DNA from: a virus
IMG/VR virus record: IMGVR_UViG_3300048033_001506
Location: 1 to 26,676 of that record
Strand: one strand, 5' to 3'
Length of the DNA: 26,676 bases
Shown here: piece by piece, positions 2,070-25,176 of the stretch
Layout of the letters: every line of letters starts with the position of its first letter
Numbering within the stretch: position 1 is the stretch's first letter
Position numbers and translations under genes: made by a program
Notes under the pieces: generated by a model
Databases searched by the model: none
What the model saw: only the letters and a program-made list of their open reading frames with translations
What the model was told of the DNA's origin: nothing

Positions 2070-2486
2070 TTATTTGTGTTTTGAACGCTGTCGAAGACGA
2101 TCTTGCTGATCTCTTACCTTTTTCATCTTCTTCTTAGTTTTTAAATGCTTGAGACCTGTAGTCGAATACTGCACACTTTCGCCAGATAGTTCTCTGTCAG
2201 AAACAGATCGCTTCCATCGCTTGACTGCTTGTGCTCTTGCCCTACGCTTTGTCTCACTGGGCTTTTCGTGATACATTTTCTTAGATAAAGTTTTCTGGAA
2301 ATCATCACGCTCTAGTCTCTTTTTGAGAATACGCAATGCTTTGCCCACATCGTTGTTTCTAACTTCAATGCCAGGCTTGAAGAAGTCTAAGAAGTCTTCT
2401 TTTTTCTTAACATATCGATCTTTATTATTATTGTTGTTGTTTTTATCCCAACTTTTTGTGAAGTTGTTATTCCTTGGTTTATTCAA
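2070..2486 (-). CDS. rpsU: Phage-encoded ribosomal protein bS21 homolog with extended ends
   Basis: Residues 40-93 match the bS21 core: IEVRNNDVGKALRILKK, then a 'MYHEKPSETKRRARAQAVKR' block, the most diagnostic part of S21. The KPSE form is closer to alphaproteobacterial S21 than to the KPTT form of enterobacteria. Cellular bS21 is about 70 residues; this one is 138, with an Asn-rich N-terminus (six consecutive Asn at 16-21) and a long Lys/Arg-rich C-terminal tail. bS21 binds the 30S platform near the anti-Shine-Dalgarno end of 16S rRNA. Viral bS21 genes are known from marine phages including a pelagiphage, and are thought to enter host ribosomes. The start is TTG, with AGAGGA just upstream, and it overlaps the clpX stop by 8 bp, so the two are coupled. 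Confidence 0.88.
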   Translation of the reverse strand: MNKPRNNNFTKSWDKNNNNNNKDRYVKKKEDFLDFFKPGIEVRNNDVGKALRILKKRLERDDFQKTLSKKMYHEKPSETKRRARAQAVKRWKRSVSDRELSGESVQYSTTGLKHLKTKKKMKKVRDQQDRLRQRSKHK

Positions 2487-3747
2487 TTTGTCCTCTCAGT
2501 AAAACACTGTAGTGTTCGTCTGTCTGTTTAACTCCGTTACTATAAACAAGAGTGGGTAATACCTGTGTTTCTTTATCCTGTGGATAACTATCAAAAATAA
2601 TACCTATAACACCGTCTTTGTTTAATTCTGGTGCTCTGAACATGATACTGTGCAGACTTGCTTCAACAATACTGCGTATTCCTCTAGCGCCTGTCCCGTT
2701 GCTGTGTGCTATCTTGGATACATTTTTAAAGTACTCTTGAGAAAAGTTTAATTCTATATTGTCCAATTCTAGCAACTGTTTAGATTCTTTGATAACACTT
2801 ACATCGGACGATGTCATAATGGAAATCATATCATCTTCTGTTAATTCGTCCAAAGATACTATAGTAGATAATCGACCAACAAACTCTGGTATCAGACCAT
2901 AGGAAATTAAATCCTTGTGAGTTATTTGCTGTCTCCATGTATCAGTTTGTGTATTACTTATATCTGCACCGAACCCGATAGTGCGTTTATTGATCCTACT
3001 TGTCACTGTTTTTTCTAAACCCACAAATGCACCACTACACACAAACAGCACGTTTGACGTATCGAACTCAACAAAACTATCGGATTTTCTAGAGTTGGGT
3101 AGCGGCACTTTTACTGTTGTGCCTTCGATCAACCGTAACAATGCCTGTTGTACACCCTCTCCACTGATATCCTTTGTTGAAGAATTAGATTCGCTGCTTC
3201 TGGATTTTTTATCTATCTCATCTATGAAAACAATTCCCGACTGTGCAAGATTTACATCCCAGTCGCAAGAATTCAGTAGTCGCTCTATGACACTTTCAAC
3301 GTCCTCACCAACATAGCCTGCCTCGGTTAATGTGGTAGCGTCTGCTATTGCAAACGGAACCCTCAGCGTCTTGGCTAAGGTCTGTGCCAGTAGTGTTTTA
3401 CCTGATCCAGTTGGACCTACCATCAGTATGTTTGTCTTGCCTATAACATGATCTTCTTTGACCAAATTCATACGTTTGTAATGATTGTACGACGCAATAC
3501 TGAGTATCTTTTTAGCTGTACTCTGTCCTATCACTGTTCTGCCTAGCGTGTCAAAAATGCTAGCCGGAGTAGGTATATCTTCCATGTTGATATCGTCGTT
3601 ATGGATATCAGTATCGTCGAGTATATTTGCACTGACTCGAATACACTCATCGCATATAAATGCAGTAGGCCCTGCAATTAATTTGTTTACTTGCTCTCTG
3701 CCTTTACCGCAAAAACTGCAGGAATAATTCTGATCTGGTGAATTCAT
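2479..3747 (-). CDS. clpX: ClpX-type AAA+ unfoldase
   Basis: At 422 residues this is full-length ClpX. The zinc-binding domain has C10, C13, C32 and C35. The AAA+ domain has Walker A GPTGSGKT (111-118), pore loop GYVG (144-147), Walker B IVFIDE (172-177), the segment corresponding to pore loop 2 around RKSDSF (220-225), the ClpP-docking tripeptide IGF (257-259) and the sensor-2 region GARGIRS (353-359). It should therefore form a hexamer that unfolds tagged proteins and docks on host ClpP; no clpP is seen here. A phage copy could redirect host proteolysis or process phage proteins. It starts with ATGA overlapping the previous gene's stop and is followed directly by bS21. No key residue seems missing. 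Confidence 0.95.
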   Translation of the reverse strand: MNSPDQNYSCSFCGKGREQVNKLIAGPTAFICDECIRVSANILDDTDIHNDDINMEDIPTPASIFDTLGRTVIGQSTAKKILSIASYNHYKRMNLVKEDHVIGKTNILMVGPTGSGKTLLAQTLAKTLRVPFAIADATTLTEAGYVGEDVESVIERLLNSCDWDVNLAQSGIVFIDEIDKKSRSSESNSSTKDISGEGVQQALLRLIEGTTVKVPLPNSRKSDSFVEFDTSNVLFVCSGAFVGLEKTVTSRINKRTIGFGADISNTQTDTWRQQITHKDLISYGLIPEFVGRLSTIVSLDELTEDDMISIMTSSDVSVIKESKQLLELDNIELNFSQEYFKNVSKIAHSNGTGARGIRSIVEASLHSIMFRAPELNKDGVIGIIFDSYPQDKETQVLPTLVYSNGVKQTDEHYSVLLRGQIE

Positions 3748-4136
3748 TTATTACTTGTATACCTCGGCTTGTCATTGGAATCGCTGTCTTCTGAGGGAAG
3801 TGGTACAGCCCAAAACCCCAATGCACTATTTACTTCGTCCTCACTGAGTTTTGTCAATAATTCGACTATTTCTTGTTCACTTAAATCTTCCTTATTGAAA
3901 TCTGAATTGACTAACAACCTTGCAGCTTCTCGCAAGTTTATATCAGTGGTATTACTTGTTTGTAGCTGACTTTCTAAATGTTTTATTTTTTCTATGTACA
4001 TTCGCTCAGCTTTAGATGAAATAGGCATAACTACTTCTCTACTCGATTGAGCGTCGGCGTCGGCTAATTTGCGTAGTGCCTTTTCGTATTTTTCAAGCAA
4101 ACTGTTGTATGCTTGTTGAATATCGTTACTGTTCAT
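3744..4136 (-). CDS. Small coiled-coil protein, paralog of the next gene upstream
   Basis: I place the start at the ATG at 4136, giving 130 residues (MNSNDIQQ...), because it overlaps the previous stop in the style of this operon; the frame remains open for 16 more codons upstream. The N-terminus 'IQQAYNSLLEKYEKALRKLAD' is a heptad helix closely similar to the N-terminus of the adjacent gene (VQSALNELYEKYEKTLRLLAD). A second helix follows around KAERMYIEKIKHLESQL, then an acidic helical segment and a short disordered tail. I do not recognise the family. The position between a coiled-coil membrane protein and ClpX suggests they act together, perhaps as adaptors or assembly partners, but this is inference only. 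Confidence 0.75.
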   Translation of the reverse strand: MNSNDIQQAYNSLLEKYEKALRKLADADAQSSREVVMPISSKAERMYIEKIKHLESQLQTSNTTDINLREAARLLVNSDFNKEDLSEQEIVELLTKLSEDEVNSALGFWAVPLPSEDSDSNDKPRYTSNK

Positions 4137-4350
4137 CGCCCAGTACGGTTTTCTCAAGATCAAGAATAGATTGCGGTATGGCAAGATTCACATCCAACGA
4201 AGGCTCAATACTTGACTGCTCTTCTAATTGTTGTATTCTAGTTTCTTGTGTGTTATTTTTTTCCACAGAGTCTGCTAACAGTCTCAGAGTTTTTTCGTAT
4301 TTTTCATACAGTTCATTTAATGCAGATTGTACTTGTTCTTTATTTGCCAT
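4126..4350 (-). CDS. Small coiled-coil protein (74 residues), paralog of its neighbour
   Basis: The 74-residue protein starts at an ATG preceded by GGAAACACCG and overlaps the membrane-protein gene before it and the paralog after it by 11 bp each. Residues 7-27 form the same 'EKYEK-LR-LAD' helix as the neighbouring gene, followed by a second heptad stretch (TRIQQLEEQSS) and a short C-terminal segment. There are no membrane segments or cysteines. The shared N-terminal helix implies tandem duplication followed by divergence of the C-terminal part. No function can be assigned; two proteins with matching coiled-coil ends might form hetero-oligomers with each other or with the coiled-coil membrane protein encoded just upstream. 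Confidence 0.75.
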   Translation of the reverse strand: MANKEQVQSALNELYEKYEKTLRLLADSVEKNNTQETRIQQLEEQSSIEPSLDVNLAIPQSILDLEKTVLGDEQ

Positions 4351-5953
4351 CGGTGTTTCCTTTTATTTTTTCTTCCAATTCTTGTTCTAACTTTAAGATA
4401 GCATCAGGCGTTTTTAAATCAAAATCTATATCCTTTTCCACTATCACTGTTTTAGTCTTAGGTTTTTTATCTAATGCTTTTTTGAGTCGTTCAATTTCTG
4501 CAGCACTTTCCATCATTGCTGTAGCAGCATCATCTACAGCAGAATATCCAGACTGTAAGGTACTATTGCTGTAACTTCCAGGAGCCCCCTCTTGTTGTAA
4601 GTCTGTATTATTGTTTTTTGTGGTCTCGACGTGAGGTACGTTTTCTTCTTTGGTATGGAGCTGTTTGTGTACCGGGGATTCACTGTTACTGTCTGTATGG
4701 CCTCCACTGGAAATTTTATATTCATCATCGGGTCCTTTATTTTCTAAATTGACACCATAACGCATCAATGTCTGATTGGCAGCTATTAACAAAATCACAG
4801 CAAGAGGATCAAACACAAACACCAGCATTAAAATGAATAGTCGAACTGATTGGTCCAGATAATCTGCAGAGTCGTTTCCATATATAAGTTGTGCCACATA
4901 CTTAATCGGGCCCACTTCCTTTTCCAGACTCCTAACAATGCTTTCTGCTTCAAATTTCTCTTCTTTCAAAGTAGCAATAGCAGTATAGATGTTGTCTATT
5001 TGATTGTTATAATCATCGATCTGCTGTATTGTATCATCCTGACTTTGAGCACTTGCTCCCCTAAGTCGATTAATTTCCGCATTAGCATTATCTATAGTGG
5101 TCTGAGCTTGCGCTCTGTATCTATCAATAGCACCCTGGAATGTCTTAATATCTGCTGTGGCCCGTTGTCGCAACAACTGTCTCTGTTGATCAAACTGCTT
5201 TTTCTGTGCAGCAAGATCATCACGTTCCACTTGTTGCACGTTCCGCAACTCGTTCGCTTGCGCAACATAATCTATGGTTTCTGTTTCTGCACGTCTAAAT
5301 GCTCCGCCGGCGTCAGTTTCAATTACTTCGACTCCTTTATTGCGTAACTCATTTACAGCACGATCCAGATCACTAAGTCTGAGATCTATCTTTTCTTCCC
5401 TGCTGTCTACACCTTCTAAATCTACTGTTAGTTGTTCTCTCACACTAGTGATTTGATTTTGATTGTACTCTATATCCCCTTGTACTTGTTCCCATGCACC
5501 GCCACGAATATTTTCCTGTTGGGCAATACTGGAATCGGTATCAAAGCCTGACCCGCTTGTCAGTGAGGATATTCTGTCCTGTACTATGCTAATTTTGTTT
5601 TCTTCTCTGCTGATTTGGCTGTCTATACGTTCCACCGCTGCAAGAGCATCACTGCTAACTCCTGCTTGATCAAGATGCGCTTTAGATAAGTATCCAAAAA
5701 TGCCCATGCTAGTGATTAGCATTAATACTAACACAGCAATAGTCAAATAAGACTTTATCAGCAGACCAGCAGTATGCCAATATCTATACAACCAACTTGC
5801 TGTGAGTAACTTGCCCACTTCCAGTGTGCCCGCCATTATAGCTATCTGCAGTGCGCTTGCGCTAAATATTGCCATAAGCCCTTCGATGCTGAACCAAGCT
5901 GCAACACCCGCTATAGTAAGAGCTGTTAATAATGTAAGGAATCCAAAAATCAT
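4340..5953 (-). CDS. Large coiled-coil inner-membrane protein
   Basis: This 537-residue protein has hydrophobic segments at about 2-24, 30-55 and 66-89, then a long charged heptad-rich region (about 100-348) and another membrane segment at 371-393 (LFILMLVFVFDPLAVILLI). The tail of about 140 residues is hydrophilic and ends in another helix (KTPDAILKLEQELEEKIK). The coiled-coil domain probably projects into the periplasm or cytoplasm between membrane anchors. I recognise the general type from marine T4-like phages, where such proteins are left unnamed; the function is unknown. It is the first gene of the minus-strand operon. A late-promoter octamer lies only 5 nt before the ATG and no Shine-Dalgarno sequence is visible, so the mRNA may be leaderless. 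Confidence 0.85.
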   Translation of the reverse strand: MIFGFLTLLTALTIAGVAAWFSIEGLMAIFSASALQIAIMAGTLEVGKLLTASWLYRYWHTAGLLIKSYLTIAVLVLMLITSMGIFGYLSKAHLDQAGVSSDALAAVERIDSQISREENKISIVQDRISSLTSGSGFDTDSSIAQQENIRGGAWEQVQGDIEYNQNQITSVREQLTVDLEGVDSREEKIDLRLSDLDRAVNELRNKGVEVIETDAGGAFRRAETETIDYVAQANELRNVQQVERDDLAAQKKQFDQQRQLLRQRATADIKTFQGAIDRYRAQAQTTIDNANAEINRLRGASAQSQDDTIQQIDDYNNQIDNIYTAIATLKEEKFEAESIVRSLEKEVGPIKYVAQLIYGNDSADYLDQSVRLFILMLVFVFDPLAVILLIAANQTLMRYGVNLENKGPDDEYKISSGGHTDSNSESPVHKQLHTKEENVPHVETTKNNNTDLQQEGAPGSYSNSTLQSGYSAVDDAATAMMESAAEIERLKKALDKKPKTKTVIVEKDIDFDLKTPDAILKLEQELEEKIKGNTDGK

Positions 5954-10051: not shown

Positions 10052-11110
10052 CTACAACTGTGACTCCATAGCTTGGAGGTATAGTTGTTCGCTGGCTAAA
10101 TTCTTTGCCTTTGCTTCGCACTGAATGTCAAAGTCATCCCAAAATGTCAAAGCCCATTCGTTAGCATCAAAGTTCGGATAGTAATCTGAGTGTGCCCTGA
10201 GTTTTTGTTTCTTAGCACCAGTTTCTAATAAGGAACTGATGGAATGAAGGGTGGTATGTCGTGTTGCTTCATCAATTCGTGTTGATTGATTAAGCCATTC
10301 ATCTCTGCTATAGCTGTAATGTAAAGTAGGGCGCACACCGCGCCAACTGTCAATGACCATTTTAACACGGTCGTCATCTGCTTGTATATATTCTTCATCT
10401 CTAATCCAGTGGTGATGTATATCTAATACCAATGCTACATGGTCTTTCAACATTAGACTTGCATCTAAGCCATGACACATTTCGTCATTTTCTATTGCAA
10501 GAGTATTTCTTGCTTCGGGAGATAATCTAGGCAATACATCAATAATACCTTGATAACCTTTTCTACCTGAGATATGGACATTAAGTTTCATGTCCATAAA
10601 TTCTTTACCGTAGCCCATCCATCGTGCCATGTTAGCATGATATTCAAACTCGTCAATGCTGCGCTCTACTACATCATCGTTGTCGCTTGCCAGTACGCAA
10701 AACTGGCCAGGATGGAAACTGATACGCACATCAAGATCACGAGCCAATTGACCCACCTTGGCGAATCCTTTCTCCAGCATCCGGATATTATCAGGATCGT
10801 CCCAAACGTAGCGCCAGTTTGGCTCAGTAGCCATAGGTATTTGATTGCTTCCAAGGCGTACCATCCTCCTGTTCTCTGGTAGTCCGCCTACGTATTTAAC
10901 CAAATTGTATGCACTTTGCATGTTATGCTCTACAAGATCAAGCATTCGCTGTTCTGCAACAGACTTGTCCTGTCTGTTACACCAGGCCACTGTAGTCACT
11001 TTTTCAGTGAAGTCTTGCTGTAACTCTTTCAATACTTTGGGTTTTTGTGATTGATCCGGATCCAAGTACTTGCAACAAAAACCAATACGCCGTATATTTT
11101 GGTCAAACAT
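10052..11110 (-). CDS. uvsE: UV damage endonuclease UvsE (UVDE)
   Basis: The start at ATG 11110 gives 352 residues beginning MFDQNIRRIGFCCKYL, the normal UvsE N-terminus; the frame is open further upstream but that part is unlike the family. Family landmarks are 'VRLGSNQIP', 'VRISFHPGQFCVLAS' (H133), 'LNVHISG', 'LAIENDE' (E207), 'LVLDIHHHW' (D230, H232), 'LHYSYSRD' and 'RAHSDYY'. These include the His/Glu/Asp metal ligands of the TIM-barrel nuclease. The enzyme nicks DNA 5' to UV photoproducts, suiting phage in sunlit water. AGGTG precedes the start. It is read from a sigma70-type promoter, so it is probably expressed early. Confidence 0.95.
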   Translation of the reverse strand: MFDQNIRRIGFCCKYLDPDQSQKPKVLKELQQDFTEKVTTVAWCNRQDKSVAEQRMLDLVEHNMQSAYNLVKYVGGLPENRRMVRLGSNQIPMATEPNWRYVWDDPDNIRMLEKGFAKVGQLARDLDVRISFHPGQFCVLASDNDDVVERSIDEFEYHANMARWMGYGKEFMDMKLNVHISGRKGYQGIIDVLPRLSPEARNTLAIENDEMCHGLDASLMLKDHVALVLDIHHHWIRDEEYIQADDDRVKMVIDSWRGVRPTLHYSYSRDEWLNQSTRIDEATRHTTLHSISSLLETGAKKQKLRAHSDYYPNFDANEWALTFWDDFDIQCEAKAKNLASEQLYLQAMESQL

Positions 11111-11140
11111 AACACACCTATATAGTAGTAAACAGTCCTT

Positions 11141-11169
11141 ATTATAGCAAAACCACATATCAAAGTCAA
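11141..11169 (-). promoter_or_regulatory. Sigma70-type promoter of uvsE
   Basis: On the minus strand TTGACT (11169-11164), a 17-bp spacer and TATAAT (11146-11141). The predicted start is near 11134. The TTGACT hexamer overlaps the plus-strand late octamer by two bases. Confidence 0.8.
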
Positions 11170-11175
11170 TAAATA
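11168..11175 (+). promoter_or_regulatory. Late-promoter octamer AATAAATA for the SGNH gene cluster
   Basis: AATAAATA ends 5 nt before the ATG at 11181, with no Shine-Dalgarno sequence between, so a T4-like start would fall on the A of the ATG. Confidence 0.65.
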
Positions 11176-11180
11176 CTTGC

Positions 11181-12005
11181 ATGGAATTTGACTTGATAAT
11201 AGCTTGCGGTGACAGTTTCACTGAAGGTTGTAAAAACGTACTGAATATACCTCCGGAGAAAACATGGCCTGGGCTTGTTGCAGAGAAGTTGAACATACCG
11301 TTTATGAACTTGGCAGTAGGTGGTTCTTGCAATTTGGATATTTCAATGCAACCTTTTAAGAACACAACACCAGATCACCTTGATATGATAGCAAACTCAA
11401 CAGCTCCGCTGATACTGTTTAACTTCACTGTGATGGAAAGGTTTTCATATCCAAGTCTGCGAACAGGTTACACAGAGTCCTGTTGGTCTGTGTTGCCTGA
11501 ACATTTAGAAATGCAGAATATTTCATGGGCTGAACCTGTTATCGATCAAATGTTCGGAGAGAATTTTCTCAATCATGGCCTATCAAATAGTCATCTAGAA
11601 TCCGCCAGATTACATCAATCAATAAACGATCCCAAATTACAAAACGTGGATTGGTTTATTTTTTCCACCATGCAGGCAATAAGGATGTGCATATCTTGGG
11701 AACGGTTAATTAAAAATTCCACAGTTAGATGGGGATTTATACATATCAACACAGGCAATTTCTTTAAAGATTTAACTGACTACAACTCCACAAGCGGAGG
11801 TAAAACTAAACTTAATTACCCTTATTTGGACAAATGCTACAATACGCATAACGATATGAAAGAACTACAGAGCCTGCTGTACTACAATGGGGAACACCTG
11901 TTAGACGACTATGTGATATCGCCAGACACGGATTTACATCCCAATCAAAAAGGGTTAGAACTAATAAGCGAGTGGTTTAAAAAATATGTCTCAGAAAAAA
12001 TTTGA
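11181..12005 (+). CDS. SGNH/GDSL-family hydrolase, first of three tandem paralogs
   Basis: The 274-residue protein has the SGNH block I as C-G-D11-S12-F-T-E-G with the nucleophile Ser12, block II 'NLAVGGSCNLD' with the oxyanion Gly, a block III-like strand 'LILFNFTVMER' and a C-terminal D-L-H-P-N motif holding the catalytic Asp and His. There is no signal peptide. Known relatives remove acetyl or acyl esters from lipids, polysaccharides or peptidoglycan; the substrate here is unknown. It is followed by two paralogs sharing the same blocks, each overlapping the previous by 11-20 bp. The ATG has no ribosome-binding site and sits 5 nt after a late octamer. Confidence 0.82.
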   Translation: MEFDLIIACGDSFTEGCKNVLNIPPEKTWPGLVAEKLNIPFMNLAVGGSCNLDISMQPFKNTTPDHLDMIANSTAPLILFNFTVMERFSYPSLRTGYTESCWSVLPEHLEMQNISWAEPVIDQMFGENFLNHGLSNSHLESARLHQSINDPKLQNVDWFIFSTMQAIRMCISWERLIKNSTVRWGFIHINTGNFFKDLTDYNSTSGGKTKLNYPYLDKCYNTHNDMKELQSLLYYNGEHLLDDYVISPDTDLHPNQKGLELISEWFKKYVSEKI

Positions 12006-14264: not shown

Positions 14265-14708
14265 ATGGATCGAAAAGCAGTATTTGAACAACTCAAAATA
14301 GATGAAGGAGTAGTATATGAAATCTACGAAGATCACCTTGGATATGCTACTTTCGGCGTGGGCCACTTGGTGCTTGACTCGGACCCAGAATTCGGACAAG
14401 CCATCGGAACTCCTATATCTGAAGAAAGAGTACGAGAATGCTTTGAACGTGACCTTGACACCGCAATTGATGAGTGTGTTGCTCTATACGGAGATACATG
14501 GAGTCGATTCCCGGGAGAAGTACAAGAAGTACTGGTCAACATGTTATTCAATTTGGGAAGACCCCGTCTAAGCAAATTTAAGAATTTTAATGCCAAATTG
14601 GAAGAGGGCGATTATTCAGGCGCTGCTCCCGAAGGTTTAGATTCTCTGTGGGCTCGACAAGTTGGGCCTCGAGCTACTAGATTAATGGATAGGCTGAAAG
14701 CTGTATAA
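14265..14708 (+). CDS. T4-type lysozyme (glycoside hydrolase family 24)
   Basis: The 147-residue protein aligns with T4 lysozyme, 'LKIDEGVVYEIYEDHLGYATFGVGHLV' against '[27 protein letters not shown]'. The catalytic triad positions are kept as E14, D23 and T29. Later landmarks are 'EVLVNMLFNLG', 'FKNFNAKLE' and 'LWARQVGPRATRLMDRL'. It is 17 residues shorter than T4 E (164), mainly by loss of the middle insertion. It hydrolyses the peptidoglycan glycan chain. There is no signal peptide, so it needs a holin or is a virion enzyme. AAGGA precedes the start, and the stop overlaps the next gene's ATG (TAATG). Confidence 0.95.
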   Translation: MDRKAVFEQLKIDEGVVYEIYEDHLGYATFGVGHLVLDSDPEFGQAIGTPISEERVRECFERDLDTAIDECVALYGDTWSRFPGEVQEVLVNMLFNLGRPRLSKFKNFNAKLEEGDYSGAAPEGLDSLWARQVGPRATRLMDRLKAV

Positions 14709-20620: not shown

Positions 20621-20914
20621 ATGAACGATATGCGCAAACTAATGGAAACTGTTGCTCCTCTTTTTCAAGAAGAGCAACCAGTTGTAGAAGCAAACTCAAC
20701 GCAAGCCATCGAAGAACTACATGGCATTCTGGATCAACTAGAAGAACTAGGTGAACATGCTCGCAGTATTGTAGCAATGATAGATAGAGGCGAAGCAGAA
20801 AGACTAGATGCATACGGTGCATTTGACTTTGGTACTAGCACAAATAGATACGATACTACACTTGCAAGTTTCGTAGAAGAATTAGAAAGCGGTGGATATG
20901 ATGAACGAGATTGA
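20621..20914 (+). CDS. Small acidic phage protein with FDFG block
   Basis: The 97-residue protein starts MNDMRKLMETVAPLFQEEQP, two nt after the previous stop. AGGT lies upstream. A helical, Glu-rich stretch (QAIEELHGILDQLEELGEHARSIVAMIDRGEAERL) precedes the conserved 'YGAFDFGTSTNRYDTTLASF' block, which I recognise as common in unnamed marine phage proteins. The same FDFG sequence appears in the previous gene ('QGVFDFGKESH'). The N-terminal L-M-E fits the prohead-protease pattern. No enzyme motif is present. It is probably a minor head or core component, by inference. Confidence 0.72.
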   Translation: MNDMRKLMETVAPLFQEEQPVVEANSTQAIEELHGILDQLEELGEHARSIVAMIDRGEAERLDAYGAFDFGTSTNRYDTTLASFVEELESGGYDERD

Positions 20915-21233
20915 TAGAATCAAGTACCTTTCTGGTATCATAACAGAGGACGAAGTAACAAAAGTTGCTGTTGGTCATGTTGACGATGAATCCGACATGA
21001 TGCGTAAAGAACTATACAAGATCGGCAAGTATGCTGTAGAACTTTACAAAATGCTAGGCGAACTTCCCGACGGTGACTTCCCGCACTGGTGGCAAGGCAA
21101 GATAGTAAAAGCTGGAGAATACATAGGGTCAGCTAAACACTATCTGGAAGGCGAACTGTATGCACCCGAGCAGAATGAAACTGAGTTAGATAAACAAGAC
21201 GAAATAGATGACATAAATCCATCGGGCGTATGA
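20901..21233 (+). CDS. Small phage protein with HWWQGKIVKAGEYIGSAKHYL block
   Basis: Start choice: ATG 20901 has GGTGG 5 nt upstream; GTG 20892 and ATG 20898 are in frame too. From 20901 it is 110 residues. It begins MNEIDRIKYLSGIITEDEV, similar to 'LERLKFLAGMTES' in the gene at 18973. The 'PHWWQGKIVKAGEYIGSAKHYLEGEL' region is a conserved helix pair I know from many unnamed marine phage proteins. The tail is acidic. It overlaps the previous gene. It is likely the last gene of the plus-strand transcript, before a terminator. A structural or head-core role is inference. Confidence 0.72.
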   Translation: MNEIDRIKYLSGIITEDEVTKVAVGHVDDESDMMRKELYKIGKYAVELYKMLGELPDGDFPHWWQGKIVKAGEYIGSAKHYLEGELYAPEQNETELDKQDEIDDINPSGV

Positions 21234-22064: not shown

Positions 22065-22072
22065 TATTTATC
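22065..22072 (-). promoter_or_regulatory. Late-promoter octamer GATAAATA for the 22040 methyltransferase
   Basis: The minus strand reads GATAAATA; the predicted start near 22059 gives a 19-nt leader with AAAGGA. Confidence 0.62.
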
Positions 22073-22755
22073 TATCCTAAAAATTCATCTTTATCCAAAC
22101 TGGCAATCAAGTGTATGCGTTCCTCATTACTGTAATTGGTTGCGCAATGTATTTTAGAAGTATCTAGCAGGTAGGAGTTTGTTGTTTTGAAGTTCGCCAT
22201 TTGTAATGGTATTTCCTCTCCGGCATGTTTGACAGAAGTAAAGCCATCTGGCCATCCTACTATAAATGATCTGTTGTTGGTCTTGATAGGAAAATGCAAT
22301 CTCCATGTTAATATAGCTGAGCCACCTTGCCAACTGCCCATGTGATCCTGACCGTCCACATGAATGCTCAATGTGGTTCTAGGTGGCAAAACGCTTATTC
22401 TCCATCTGTATGCACCGGGTACAGATTGTACAAACTGTTCTAAGTAAGTGCCTTTAATTTGATTAATGGGGTATACATATGCTCGTTCATTAATAATTTC
22501 ATTCTGTTCTCTGGTCAGTTGGGTGGTTAATGATACGGAAGTATCGGCACGTGTGTTGTTTATAAAAGTTTTTCCAGCTATACCGTCAGTCCAATCAGAA
22601 GAATCTTTTGTTGAAACTGTGATGCTTTGATTTCGATTAGCAAGTGATTCATACTCTGAGCCCACTGCTTGTGTACATATTGTGTTGTACACCCTGATCA
22701 CATCTCTTCTCAGTGCCATATAATCGAAATCTATGTCAACTTTTTCAAATATCAT
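22072..22755 (-). CDS. 2-oxoglutarate/Fe(II) oxygenase-like protein (aspartyl/asparaginyl hydroxylase type)
   Basis: In 227 residues the facial triad is readable: H132-x-D134 in 'SIHVDGQDH', the distal H203 in 'KIHCATNY', and R213 in 'ERIHLI' for 2-oxoglutarate. 'WRLHFPIKTN' and 'LLDTSKIH' match the double-stranded helix strands of aspartyl beta-hydroxylase-like proteins, common in marine phages. It probably hydroxylates a protein side chain or small molecule; the target is unknown. It is the last of a coupled set: the start overlaps the next upstream gene's stop by 4 bp. A third of the N-terminus is unfamiliar. Confidence 0.83.
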   Translation of the reverse strand: MIFEKVDIDFDYMALRRDVIRVYNTICTQAVGSEYESLANRNQSITVSTKDSSDWTDGIAGKTFINNTRADTSVSLTTQLTREQNEIINERAYVYPINQIKGTYLEQFVQSVPGAYRWRISVLPPRTTLSIHVDGQDHMGSWQGGSAILTWRLHFPIKTNNRSFIVGWPDGFTSVKHAGEEIPLQMANFKTTNSYLLDTSKIHCATNYSNEERIHLIASLDKDEFLG

Positions 22756-23423
22756 AACTGTATGTCCGTTGCTTTTTGTAAATGCAGTGCATCAGGACCG
22801 ACCATGCCAGTAATTGTGAGGCAGTATCGAGGCCAATATCCCACATTGCCTGTTGCATGATATATTCCTTCCGGCCAACAATGAATATCGCCTAATCGAT
22901 ATTGGTGAAGTACGGTGTTTCCTATCAACACATAATGCCCCCAATTCCAATCATTCAACTGTACAAGATATCTGATCACTTCTGTGTCGTCACTGACTTT
23001 TGCAAAATTGCGTCTATAATTATTATAACTGTCCCTGTGCCACGGAATTGCTTTTCCGGGTGGTTGCTTTAAAAACATAATTTGAGGATCAATCAGACCT
23101 GACAATTCTGCCATTCGGTGAAACAATTCAGGTAGATTGTTTCGACGTTGCATGCCACCGGTGTTGTGTTCGTTGAAACCAGCAGAAGTGATATCATTGT
23201 GGTATCCCTCCATTATGCTCTGTGCTTGTGGATTATATGCTGTGCCCTTAAATTCAACTTCGCTGTAACTGTCGCTTTCTTCAAAGTTCTTATCCGCATG
23301 CTGAATTGTATTTTCCAAATCAGTGTGCACAAATCGGCCAACATGCTTGACATCATTGTGATCACACGACGGATCATAATGCCAAGGAAAATTTTGTTTG
23401 TTCCATTCCCAATAACTGTCCAT
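22752..23423 (-). CDS. 2-oxoglutarate/Fe(II) oxygenase-like protein
   Basis: The 223-residue protein has H129-R-D131 in 'IPWHRDSYNNYRR', the distal H189 in 'GIYHATGN' and R199 near 'WPRYCLTITG' as the likely 2-oxoglutarate-binding Arg. Strands 'YLVQLNDWNWGHYVLIGN' and 'RLGDIHCWPEG' fit the jelly-roll core. It is a different family member from its neighbours on both sides, with little similarity outside the metal residues. Target unknown. One base separates it from the stop of the upstream oxygenase gene, and it overlaps the downstream one by ATGA, so the three are one translational unit. Confidence 0.82.
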   Translation of the reverse strand: MDSYWEWNKQNFPWHYDPSCDHNDVKHVGRFVHTDLENTIQHADKNFEESDSYSEVEFKGTAYNPQAQSIMEGYHNDITSAGFNEHNTGGMQRRNNLPELFHRMAELSGLIDPQIMFLKQPPGKAIPWHRDSYNNYRRNFAKVSDDTEVIRYLVQLNDWNWGHYVLIGNTVLHQYRLGDIHCWPEGIYHATGNVGYWPRYCLTITGMVGPDALHLQKATDIQL

Positions 23424-23424
23424 T

Positions 23425-24105
23425 TTAGTAATACTCTCCCGTAAAAAAGATACGCCGATGATCCAAGTGACTGGAATAATCAGTGCCGTGCCATGTGTCT
23501 TTGCCAGGGGCCCACATGAAAATTAGCCCGTTTTTGAATTTAATTTCCTTAGAAAATTCAGGAAAATTAGTTTCCTGGGGATCCAGTGGATTATTCAAAG
23601 ATACATAAAGTTTTGTGCCATAGTCTGAGTAATCCAAACTGTCATCAGCACAATATATTACACATTTTATCAAGCCAATACTGAGGGCATCTCTCCCATA
23701 CTTGATGTTTTCTCTACGAAGTTCTTCAGGATCATCTGTGTGCGGCAAAAGTATACCCGTTTCTCTTATAAGATCAGCCCCGTGCATTTTAGAATTGACC
23801 ATATTGGCTTCAGTAAGGCCCACATGCCAGTGTCCATTACTTTTAACATAGTCACCAAAATGCTTTGTTGCTATTTGTTGCAGCACCATACATAAATGAT
23901 CTTTATGCTCCCAATACAATATACTGTCAGCATTTTCAACACCGTAATTTGCTTGATCATCTGGCGTATAATTAGATAATTTTAATGCGTCTGCATGTAC
24001 TTGCAAGCAGAGATCATTCACATAATCACACTGCGCCGTGACATGTCGCCATGGGTAATCATGTTCCTCTGATTGGATCTGGAAATTATGTTCGTTTGCG
24101 CTCAT
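23425..24105 (-). CDS. 2-oxoglutarate/Fe(II) oxygenase-like protein (prolyl-hydroxylase type)
   Basis: In 226 residues, H122-T-D124 in 'LLPHTDDPEELRR', H206 in 'DTWHGTDY' and R217/R218 in 'HRRIFFTGEYY' form the expected metal and co-substrate set. 'IKCVIYCADDSL' and 'LIFMWAPGKDTWHG' match the barrel strands. I read it as prolyl-4-hydroxylase/PiuC-like in fold, with unknown target. It overlaps the GH6 gene upstream by 20 bp. Residues 1-90 are His/Tyr-rich and not recognisable. It is the first of three oxygenase-like genes. Confidence 0.82.
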   Translation of the reverse strand: MSANEHNFQIQSEEHDYPWRHVTAQCDYVNDLCLQVHADALKLSNYTPDDQANYGVENADSILYWEHKDHLCMVLQQIATKHFGDYVKSNGHWHVGLTEANMVNSKMHGADLIRETGILLPHTDDPEELRRENIKYGRDALSIGLIKCVIYCADDSLDYSDYGTKLYVSLNNPLDPQETNFPEFSKEIKFKNGLIFMWAPGKDTWHGTDYSSHLDHRRIFFTGEYY

Positions 24106-24943
24106 AGTTCTTCACTAGCTCCTCGGCTTGCTCTCCCCAAAATTTTCCTGCTTTTGGGCCGCCATTACGTTTGCCGTCCGACTCTCCTGGTATCTTTACC
24201 CATAAAAATGCATCACATTTTTCTTCACCGGTATCACATGTAGGGGGTTGTCCTAACGATCTGCCTGGAGGATTACACCATTCATTGCCGTGAGGGCCGT
24301 TGCCGTTGCGACTTGTGTCCACAACAAAATAATCGTTAGGCCTATGTTCACATATTTTCATCGCCCACTCAATACTTTCCTTTGTGGTGCGATAGTTGCT
24401 AACATTCACACTGAAGCCCCTGACTTTATTGTTACACACACTATTTAACAGTTTTGCTGAGTCTTCGGCATTTAACCAATTACTATGGCCGATGTCAACA
24501 TAAACCAATGCATCACACCTGCTTGTGAAAAGCTCAATGCCTTCCCTCATTGTGTCTAGACGCCATTTGGCGTCAGTGGGATCCATTTCCACAGTGTGGG
24601 GTAAACTATCAGGTTCAAAAATAACAATGGGTTTATTATTTCCTATACCATCAGCGAAACTTTCTAGGAAGTAAAAATAACTGTCTCTAGAGTGTGCGCC
24701 GCCTTTGCTGTAATGTCCCATGTCTCTGTTGGGCATGTTATAAACTACCAGTACTGGCAATCGAGGGGATGTTCTCCGAAGTAATCGGCGTATGCTGTTA
24801 TCCAAGTCACTTACTTCTTTCCCGTTTCTTTCGCCGTACCAAAAACTCACAGGGTGTTCAAAAATTTTACTAGCAAGGGGATAATGTATTTTGTGGTCTT
24901 TTACTCTGTCAAAGTCATTGACCCAAAAAGGATATGATAGCAT
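24086..24943 (-). CDS. Glycoside hydrolase family 6 (cellulase/cellobiohydrolase-type) enzyme
   Basis: From ATG 24943 the protein is 285 residues, one GH6 catalytic domain. Landmarks in order: 'LPVLVVYNMPNRD' (general acid D74), 'FEPDSLPH' (E110-P-D-S-L), 'YVDIGHSNWL' (D150), 'GFSVNVSNY', 'VVDTSRNGNGP' (D209), 'EWCNPPGRSLG', 'CDAFLWVKIPGESDG' (D244) and 'GPKAGKFW'. All diagnostic GH6 blocks are present. Six cysteines suggest an exported protein, yet this frame has no signal peptide. Known GH6 enzymes cleave beta-1,4-glucan with inversion. I chose 24943 because TAATG couples it to the 44-residue gene before it; ATG 24973 in the same frame is possible. A phage GH6 is unusual. Confidence 0.9.
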   Translation of the reverse strand: MLSYPFWVNDFDRVKDHKIHYPLASKIFEHPVSFWYGERNGKEVSDLDNSIRRLLRRTSPRLPVLVVYNMPNRDMGHYSKGGAHSRDSYFYFLESFADGIGNNKPIVIFEPDSLPHTVEMDPTDAKWRLDTMREGIELFTSRCDALVYVDIGHSNWLNAEDSAKLLNSVCNNKVRGFSVNVSNYRTTKESIEWAMKICEHRPNDYFVVDTSRNGNGPHGNEWCNPPGRSLGQPPTCDTGEEKCDAFLWVKIPGESDGKRNGGPKAGKFWGEQAEELVKNYERKRT

Positions 24944-25077
24944 TAATACAATAGACCGTAAGCCAAGCACCATACTTCTAATGCAACAGCATAAGCAGCA
25001 TCTGCAAAAATTGGCACAAGTGCTATAAACAGTGCTGAACCTAATAGAAATTTTTGTGTTTTAGATAAACTCAGCAT
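24943..25077 (-). CDS. 44-residue signal-peptide-like or membrane peptide directly before GH6
   Basis: An ATG at 25077 preceded by GGAG (8-nt spacing) opens a 44-codon frame ending in TAA whose last A begins the GH6 ATG. The peptide has a basic start (K6, K9), a hydrophobic core 'FLLGSALFIALVPIFA' and A-D-A-A-Y-A, a good signal-peptidase-I site, then 'VALEVWCLAYGLLY'. It could be the export signal of GH6 separated by a frameshift, or an independent small membrane peptide. The ribosome-binding site supports real translation. The preceding feature is tRNA-Thr. Confidence 0.6.
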   Translation of the reverse strand: MLSLSKTQKFLLGSALFIALVPIFADAAYAVALEVWCLAYGLLY

Positions 25078-25100: not shown

Positions 25101-25176
25101 TGGTGCCGCCACCAAGAATCGAACTCGGGACCTTCTCATTACAAGTGAGCTGCTCTACCTGCTGAGCTATAGCGGC
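25101..25176 (-). tRNA. tRNA-Thr, anticodon UGU
   Basis: The 76-nt gene folds as a full cloverleaf: acceptor GCCGCTA with TGGCGGC, D-arm GCTC/GAGC, anticodon loop CTTGTAA (anticodon TGT), T-arm CCGAG-TTCGATT-CTTGG, and an encoded 3' CCA. The anticodon stem has a G-A mismatch at its first pair (27-43) and one G-T in the T-stem. It reads ACA (and possibly other ACN) Thr codons, common in AT-rich phage genes. A late octamer lies 10 bases before the 5' end, so a late start falls about 4 nt upstream of the mature tRNA. Confidence 0.95.

Follow-up and report, generated by a model that had tools for sequence, protein, structure and literature searches.

Does the phage-encoded GH6 enzyme at this locus take its export signal from a separate, overlapping reading frame, and, if not, where would such an enzyme act? 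The stretch of viral DNA analyzed here (26,676 nucleotides of IMG/VR record IMGVR_UViG_3300048033_001506; hereafter designated the window) carries a cellulase-type gene that is directly preceded by a short hydrophobic frame (Table 1). A sequence-only reading had offered two explanations, that is, a frameshift that links a signal peptide to the enzyme, or a small membrane peptide co-translated with it.

Table 1 Features around the GH6 gene in the window.
Feature	Coordinates	Strand	Basis or remarks
GH6 endoglucanase-type catalytic domain, 285 aa	24086..24943	(-)	PF01341 profile, homologue starts, AF2 model, Foldseek
44-aa small membrane protein gene (C-terminal LExWCxAYGxxY family)	24943..25077	(-)	57 viral loci
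TAATG junction, small-ORF stop over conserved GH6 start	24941..24945	(-)	Without Shine-Dalgarno of its own
tRNA-Thr (TGT), upstream of small ORF	25101..25176	(-)	Conserved in L001
c25, overlaps GH6 end, downstream	23425..24105	(-)	No profile match; residue pattern may point to a 2OG-Fe(II) oxygenase-like protein
c10, downstream	22752..23423	(-)	Conserved in 23 loci; no profile match
c3, downstream	22072..22755	(-)	Weak Asp_Arg_Hydrox match (4.2e-4), below cut-off; family in 57 loci

The frame that holds the GH6 domain extends from 24973 to 24086 (-), with a second in-frame ATG at its upstream end (24973), while the conserved GH6 start stays at the ATG at 24943. Profile searching with the 285-residue protein gave a significant match to Pfam PF01341 (E = 1.3e-49; 170 bits against a cut-off of 27), the best match in the PDB was M. 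tuberculosis Cel6 (E = 2.6e-52), and all the motifs listed in the sequence-only reading, together with the six Cys residues, are present, which bears out the GH6 assignment. Moreover, an AlphaFold2 model built from 27 relatives (pLDDT 84.6, pTM 0.87) found M. tuberculosis Cel6 (1up0) as the top Foldseek match (TM 0.87, 3.4e-26), and T. fusca Cel6A (TfCel6A; 1TML) has the same fold (TM 0.83). The Asp of the NRD block, formerly named as the hallmark acid, is an active-site residue (D74, corresponding to TfCel6A D79), but the catalytic acid lies instead in the EPD block, whose Asp (D112) corresponds in the alignment to 1TML to TfCel6A D117, which we take to be the GH6 catalytic acid. All four active-site Asp residues are present, and the equivalents of the catalytic acid and base (TfCel6A D117 and D265) and of the supporting Asp residues (D79 and D156) are invariant in an alignment of 68 distinct viral GH6 sequences, the window included. 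Values of pN were 0.11–0.27 vs pS values of 0.70–0.80; at the level of codon substitutions, the gene is under purifying selection, and its product is, as judged from the conserved residues, an intact β-1,4-glucanase-type catalytic domain with the corresponding predicted activity. PHROGs holds no family for this protein, and a structure search of BFVD yielded nothing resembling GH6 above TM 0.41.

Relatives of the enzyme were collected from IMG/VR, in which initial scans gave 45 relatives (57–84% identity) and a scan with an alignment query gave 159, the best 80 of them being kept; the fetched loci overlap (some contigs were fetched twice) and amount to the 68 distinct viral sequences mentioned above. 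In a maximum-likelihood tree, the viral set formed one side of a branch at 100/99. The other sequences in the tree were a few GH6 proteins from bacteria and from other phages; because bacteria were thinly sampled, this monophyly holds against that set only, and the long branches make the placement of the outside rows uncertain; within the sampled set, the viral sequences form a monophyletic clade in this tree. Nearly all the clade proteins are ~280–290 residues long and consist of the catalytic domain alone, with no attachment domain. Two loci (L011:6001-6942 and L014:6001-6954) encode GH6 with a C-terminal extension of ~30 residues holding a CxxC motif. Scanning 84,980 genomes of bacteria and archaea (GTDB) gave one confirmed relative, in a Myxococcales MAG (40% identity), and since two strict patterns were used in that scan, close relatives are to be regarded as rare, not absent; two of 96 genomes scanned from the phylum of this match carry GH6.

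The GH6 proteins of all the fetched viral relatives (best 80 of 159) begin with M(x)YPFWVN or an equivalent sequence, and their frame is closed by a stop 0–22 codons 5' of the start. None of these relatives has a hydrophobic GH6 N-terminus, the maximum Kyte-Doolittle mean being 0.66; the value for the window is 2.06, its GH6 frame extending across the small ORF that overlaps it. The absence of an in-frame signal peptide noted earlier for the window is thus shared by its viral relatives, and the one-frame arrangement of signal and GH6 that the split-signal idea would predict occurs in none of those fetched, nor do they carry a signal-like region upstream in the frame of the enzyme. In mature TfCel6A (1TML), homology sets in at residue 3, and the viral start corresponds to the N-terminus that secreted bacterial Cel6A has after maturation. 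M. tuberculosis Cel6 and TfCel6A, both secreted, have in common with the viral proteins the catalytic Asp set and the WCNP/WCDP and PGE(S/A)DG blocks, but keep C80 and C125, which form a disulfide bond in TfCel6A, whereas the viral clade lacks these Cys residues and starts at the mature N-terminus. The two positions are Cys in none of the 68 distinct viral sequences and are both Cys in M. tuberculosis Cel6, TfCel6A, 6FAO, two myxobacterial copies, and a fecal-phage copy. The GH6 of the Myxococcales MAG (L049) shares CDAYLWIK and NGGPKAG with the viral clade, but keeps C80/C125 and lies on a long branch away from it. Because C223 and C243 are still invariant in the viral alignment (A1), the loss of C80–C125 alone is no proof of a reducing environment, and insertions shift the alignment near TfCel6A C267, blurring the second cysteine pair. 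Together, the signal-less start at the mature N-terminus and the lost C80/C125 suggest a cytoplasm-adapted protein, that is, a viral clade reshaped for the cytoplasm.

Viral GH6 genes as a category have already been reported. GH6 is among the virus-borne genes of Mariana Trench sediments (PMC8725595), for which transfers from Gemmatimonadetes or Proteobacteria were inferred, and of Aral Sea soils (PMC9948696); beside these reports and gp72 of the isolate Streptomyces phage Gilgamesh, annotated as a glycoside hydrolase, the earlier statement that no phage GH6 is well described is roughly right. The two virome reports, likewise concerning viral contigs, treat GH6 at the family level, and their GH6 passages describe neither a signal-less clade nor an operon. 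No account of the signal-less clade, whose GH6 gene usually shares an operon with peptide deformylase, was found in the literature, within a partial coverage, and as such it is apparently undescribed. Viral GH6 is read in PMC8725595 as an auxiliary metabolic gene, with which the infected host would digest environmental (algal or plant) cellulose; we regard this as improbable for the present enzyme, because an external polymer is out of reach without export until the cell is dead. A cellulase retained in the cell is of no nutritional use to the host while infection lasts, which makes release at lysis, or else a target inside the cell, the more plausible reading. Gilgamesh gp72, likewise without C80/C125, has 33% identity and lies outside the viral clade; its extra N-terminal region comprises ~140 residues, and its gene follows a large, maybe structural ORF. 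These features of gp72 would fit a GH6 inside the virion or on its surface that removes exopolysaccharide as the phage enters, the usual mode of action of phage depolymerases; we nevertheless consider this rather unlikely here, as the clade proteins have only the catalytic domain to offer, with nothing for attachment, and are encoded in non-structural neighborhoods.

The small frame has the features described for it, namely, GGAG 5' of its start, Lys among its early residues followed by a hydrophobic stretch, 'AYA', and the TAATG junction. Its relatives were searched for with a 49-residue frame as the query and then with an alignment of four small ORFs, the latter giving 57 viral loci, and GH6 lies within the fetched flanks at 5 of these, all on the L001–L004 and L008 contigs. 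The part that is conserved in the family is the C-terminus (LE[VIL]WC[ILA]AYG..Y), and the last residue of the presumed AYA cleavage site is M, R, K, or W in the relatives. Eight close homologues compared pairwise showed pS > pN, so that the small ORF is taken to be a real coding gene; its protein was absent from the 50,697 GenBank phages searched and has no family in PHROGs (best 0.07). A role of this frame as the export signal of the enzyme does not agree with these data, since GH6 is either not near the homologues or lies beyond an intervening glutaredoxin or deformylase gene, and the AYA is variable while the C-terminus is conserved. The other explanation, a separate small membrane peptide, is upheld by a family of its own, and the small ORF is, as read from these comparisons, an independent phage microprotein gene beside GH6 in this virus. 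The family members (L104–L160; window 24943-25077) are ~36–60 residues long with a near-invariant C-terminus, and several lie near phage tmRNA genes. On one phage contig with a gp25 baseplate gene (L047), a small ORF of this family is overlapped, in a different frame, by the start of a BtuB-like TonB-dependent receptor gene (4060-5751 (+); NCBIfam TIGR01779 4.5e-48, below cut-off; Pfam barrel 1.5e-26), and 5-aminolevulinate synthase, typically an alphaproteobacterial enzyme, is encoded on the same contig (7086-8063 (-); TIGR01821 5.6e-128, above cut-off).

The closest relatives, L001–L004 (84% GH6 identity; L001 contig, 340 kb), have the order tRNA-Thr, small ORF, glutaredoxin, and GH6, and in L008 the small ORF and GH6 are parted by a deformylase gene. 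Gene order in the window equals that of L001 on both sides, minus the glutaredoxin gene, and it is because this gene is absent that the small ORF adjoins GH6. The TAATG junction is consistent with translational coupling. In the relatives, the 5' junctions of GH6 are likewise close or overlapping, with other upstream genes: the start lies near or inside the stop of a peptide deformylase gene at 56 loci, a Grx4-type glutaredoxin gene at 10, a gene of the uncharacterized c29 family at 10, and others, and the partner gene upstream of GH6 is, on this comparison, exchangeable. As close coupling is the rule in the viral clade, the tight junction of the window needs no special explanation. The fusion of the hydrophobic ORF to GH6 by a programmed -1 frameshift, or by a sequencing indel, to give a secreted enzyme would account for the -1 relation of the two frames, the resemblance of the small ORF to a signal peptide, its tight junction with GH6, and the GH6 frame being open for ~40 codons upstream. 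The overlap, however, contains no in-frame slippery X XXY YYZ heptamer, only half-matches, and the upstream gene differs between relatives; neither a one-frame signal nor this small-ORF/GH6 pair occurs in any fetched viral relative, a glutaredoxin gene intervenes in the closest ones, 52 of the 57 small-ORF loci are without GH6 in the fetched flanks, what the small protein conserves is not a cleavage site, and the disulfide expected of a secreted form is lost in the clade. With no heptamer and with this comparative evidence, both the programmed frameshift and the indel are very unlikely, and we give the fusion almost no credence.

A gp23 T4-like capsid gene lies on the 340-kb contig of L001 (the relative's contig, not the 26.7-kb window fragment), and the GH6 gene of another clade member, L085, adjoins gp32 and RecA/UvsX-type genes; the window is probably from a T4-like, jumbo tailed phage. 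A typical cyanophage origin is less likely because psbA was absent from 16 related contigs, which may be fragments, and the T4 late-promoter TATAAATA occurs in the window at chance frequency. The window also encodes a UV-damage endonuclease-like protein (10052-11365 (-)) and a ClpX/ATP-dependent protease-like protein (2479-3747 (-)), whose best phage homologues have ~42–49% identity, many of them in large phages. In neighboring proteins (window 20621-21233 and L001:9756-10371), a short hydrophobic pattern comes after a common N-terminal motif of the M(N)E(I/M) type; this may be a targeting leader.

As to the role of the enzyme, we propose, with confidence and doubt about evenly balanced, that the signal-less GH6 is made in the cytoplasm and freed at lysis to cut glucan of matrix or debris, the small ORF being independent of it. 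Translation would start at ATG 24943, coupled to whichever gene precedes; the enzyme, synthesized without a signal peptide in the host cytoplasm, would accumulate in the cell until lysis, and once released would cut β-1,4-linked glucan of the host matrix or debris, thereby promoting escape and diffusion of the progeny. Counting against release at lysis, the GH6 genes lie in metabolic-type operons and not beside lysozyme, which in the window is at 14265-14708, apart from GH6. Such neighbors (deformylase, glutaredoxin, oxygenase-like proteins, and nucleotidyltransferases), along with the absence of an export signal and the loss of a secretory-type disulfide, would suit an enzyme whose target within the infected cell is a glucan, either intracellular or made by the phage, or one drifted to another glycan, for example, of glycosylated phage components. 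This is unlikely in our estimation, given that the active site is kept as in β-1,4-endoglucanases and that intracellular β-1,4-glucans are not generally known from bacteria.

Beyond the release of a cytoplasmic GH6 at lysis, we tentatively consider, with less than even confidence, that a phage clade may have taken over a secreted cellulase, which as a domesticated, disulfide-reduced enzyme of the cytoplasm would serve a new role, either matrix release in the lysis phase or action on intracellular β-1,4-glucan, and that the small ORF may represent a new, widespread microprotein family. Collectively, the story of a split signal is replaced by that of a phage GH6 clade, common in IMG/VR contigs, that is without a signal peptide and a structural disulfide; this changes the reading of viral cellulases and presents a candidate for the escape of phages from polysaccharide-embedded hosts.
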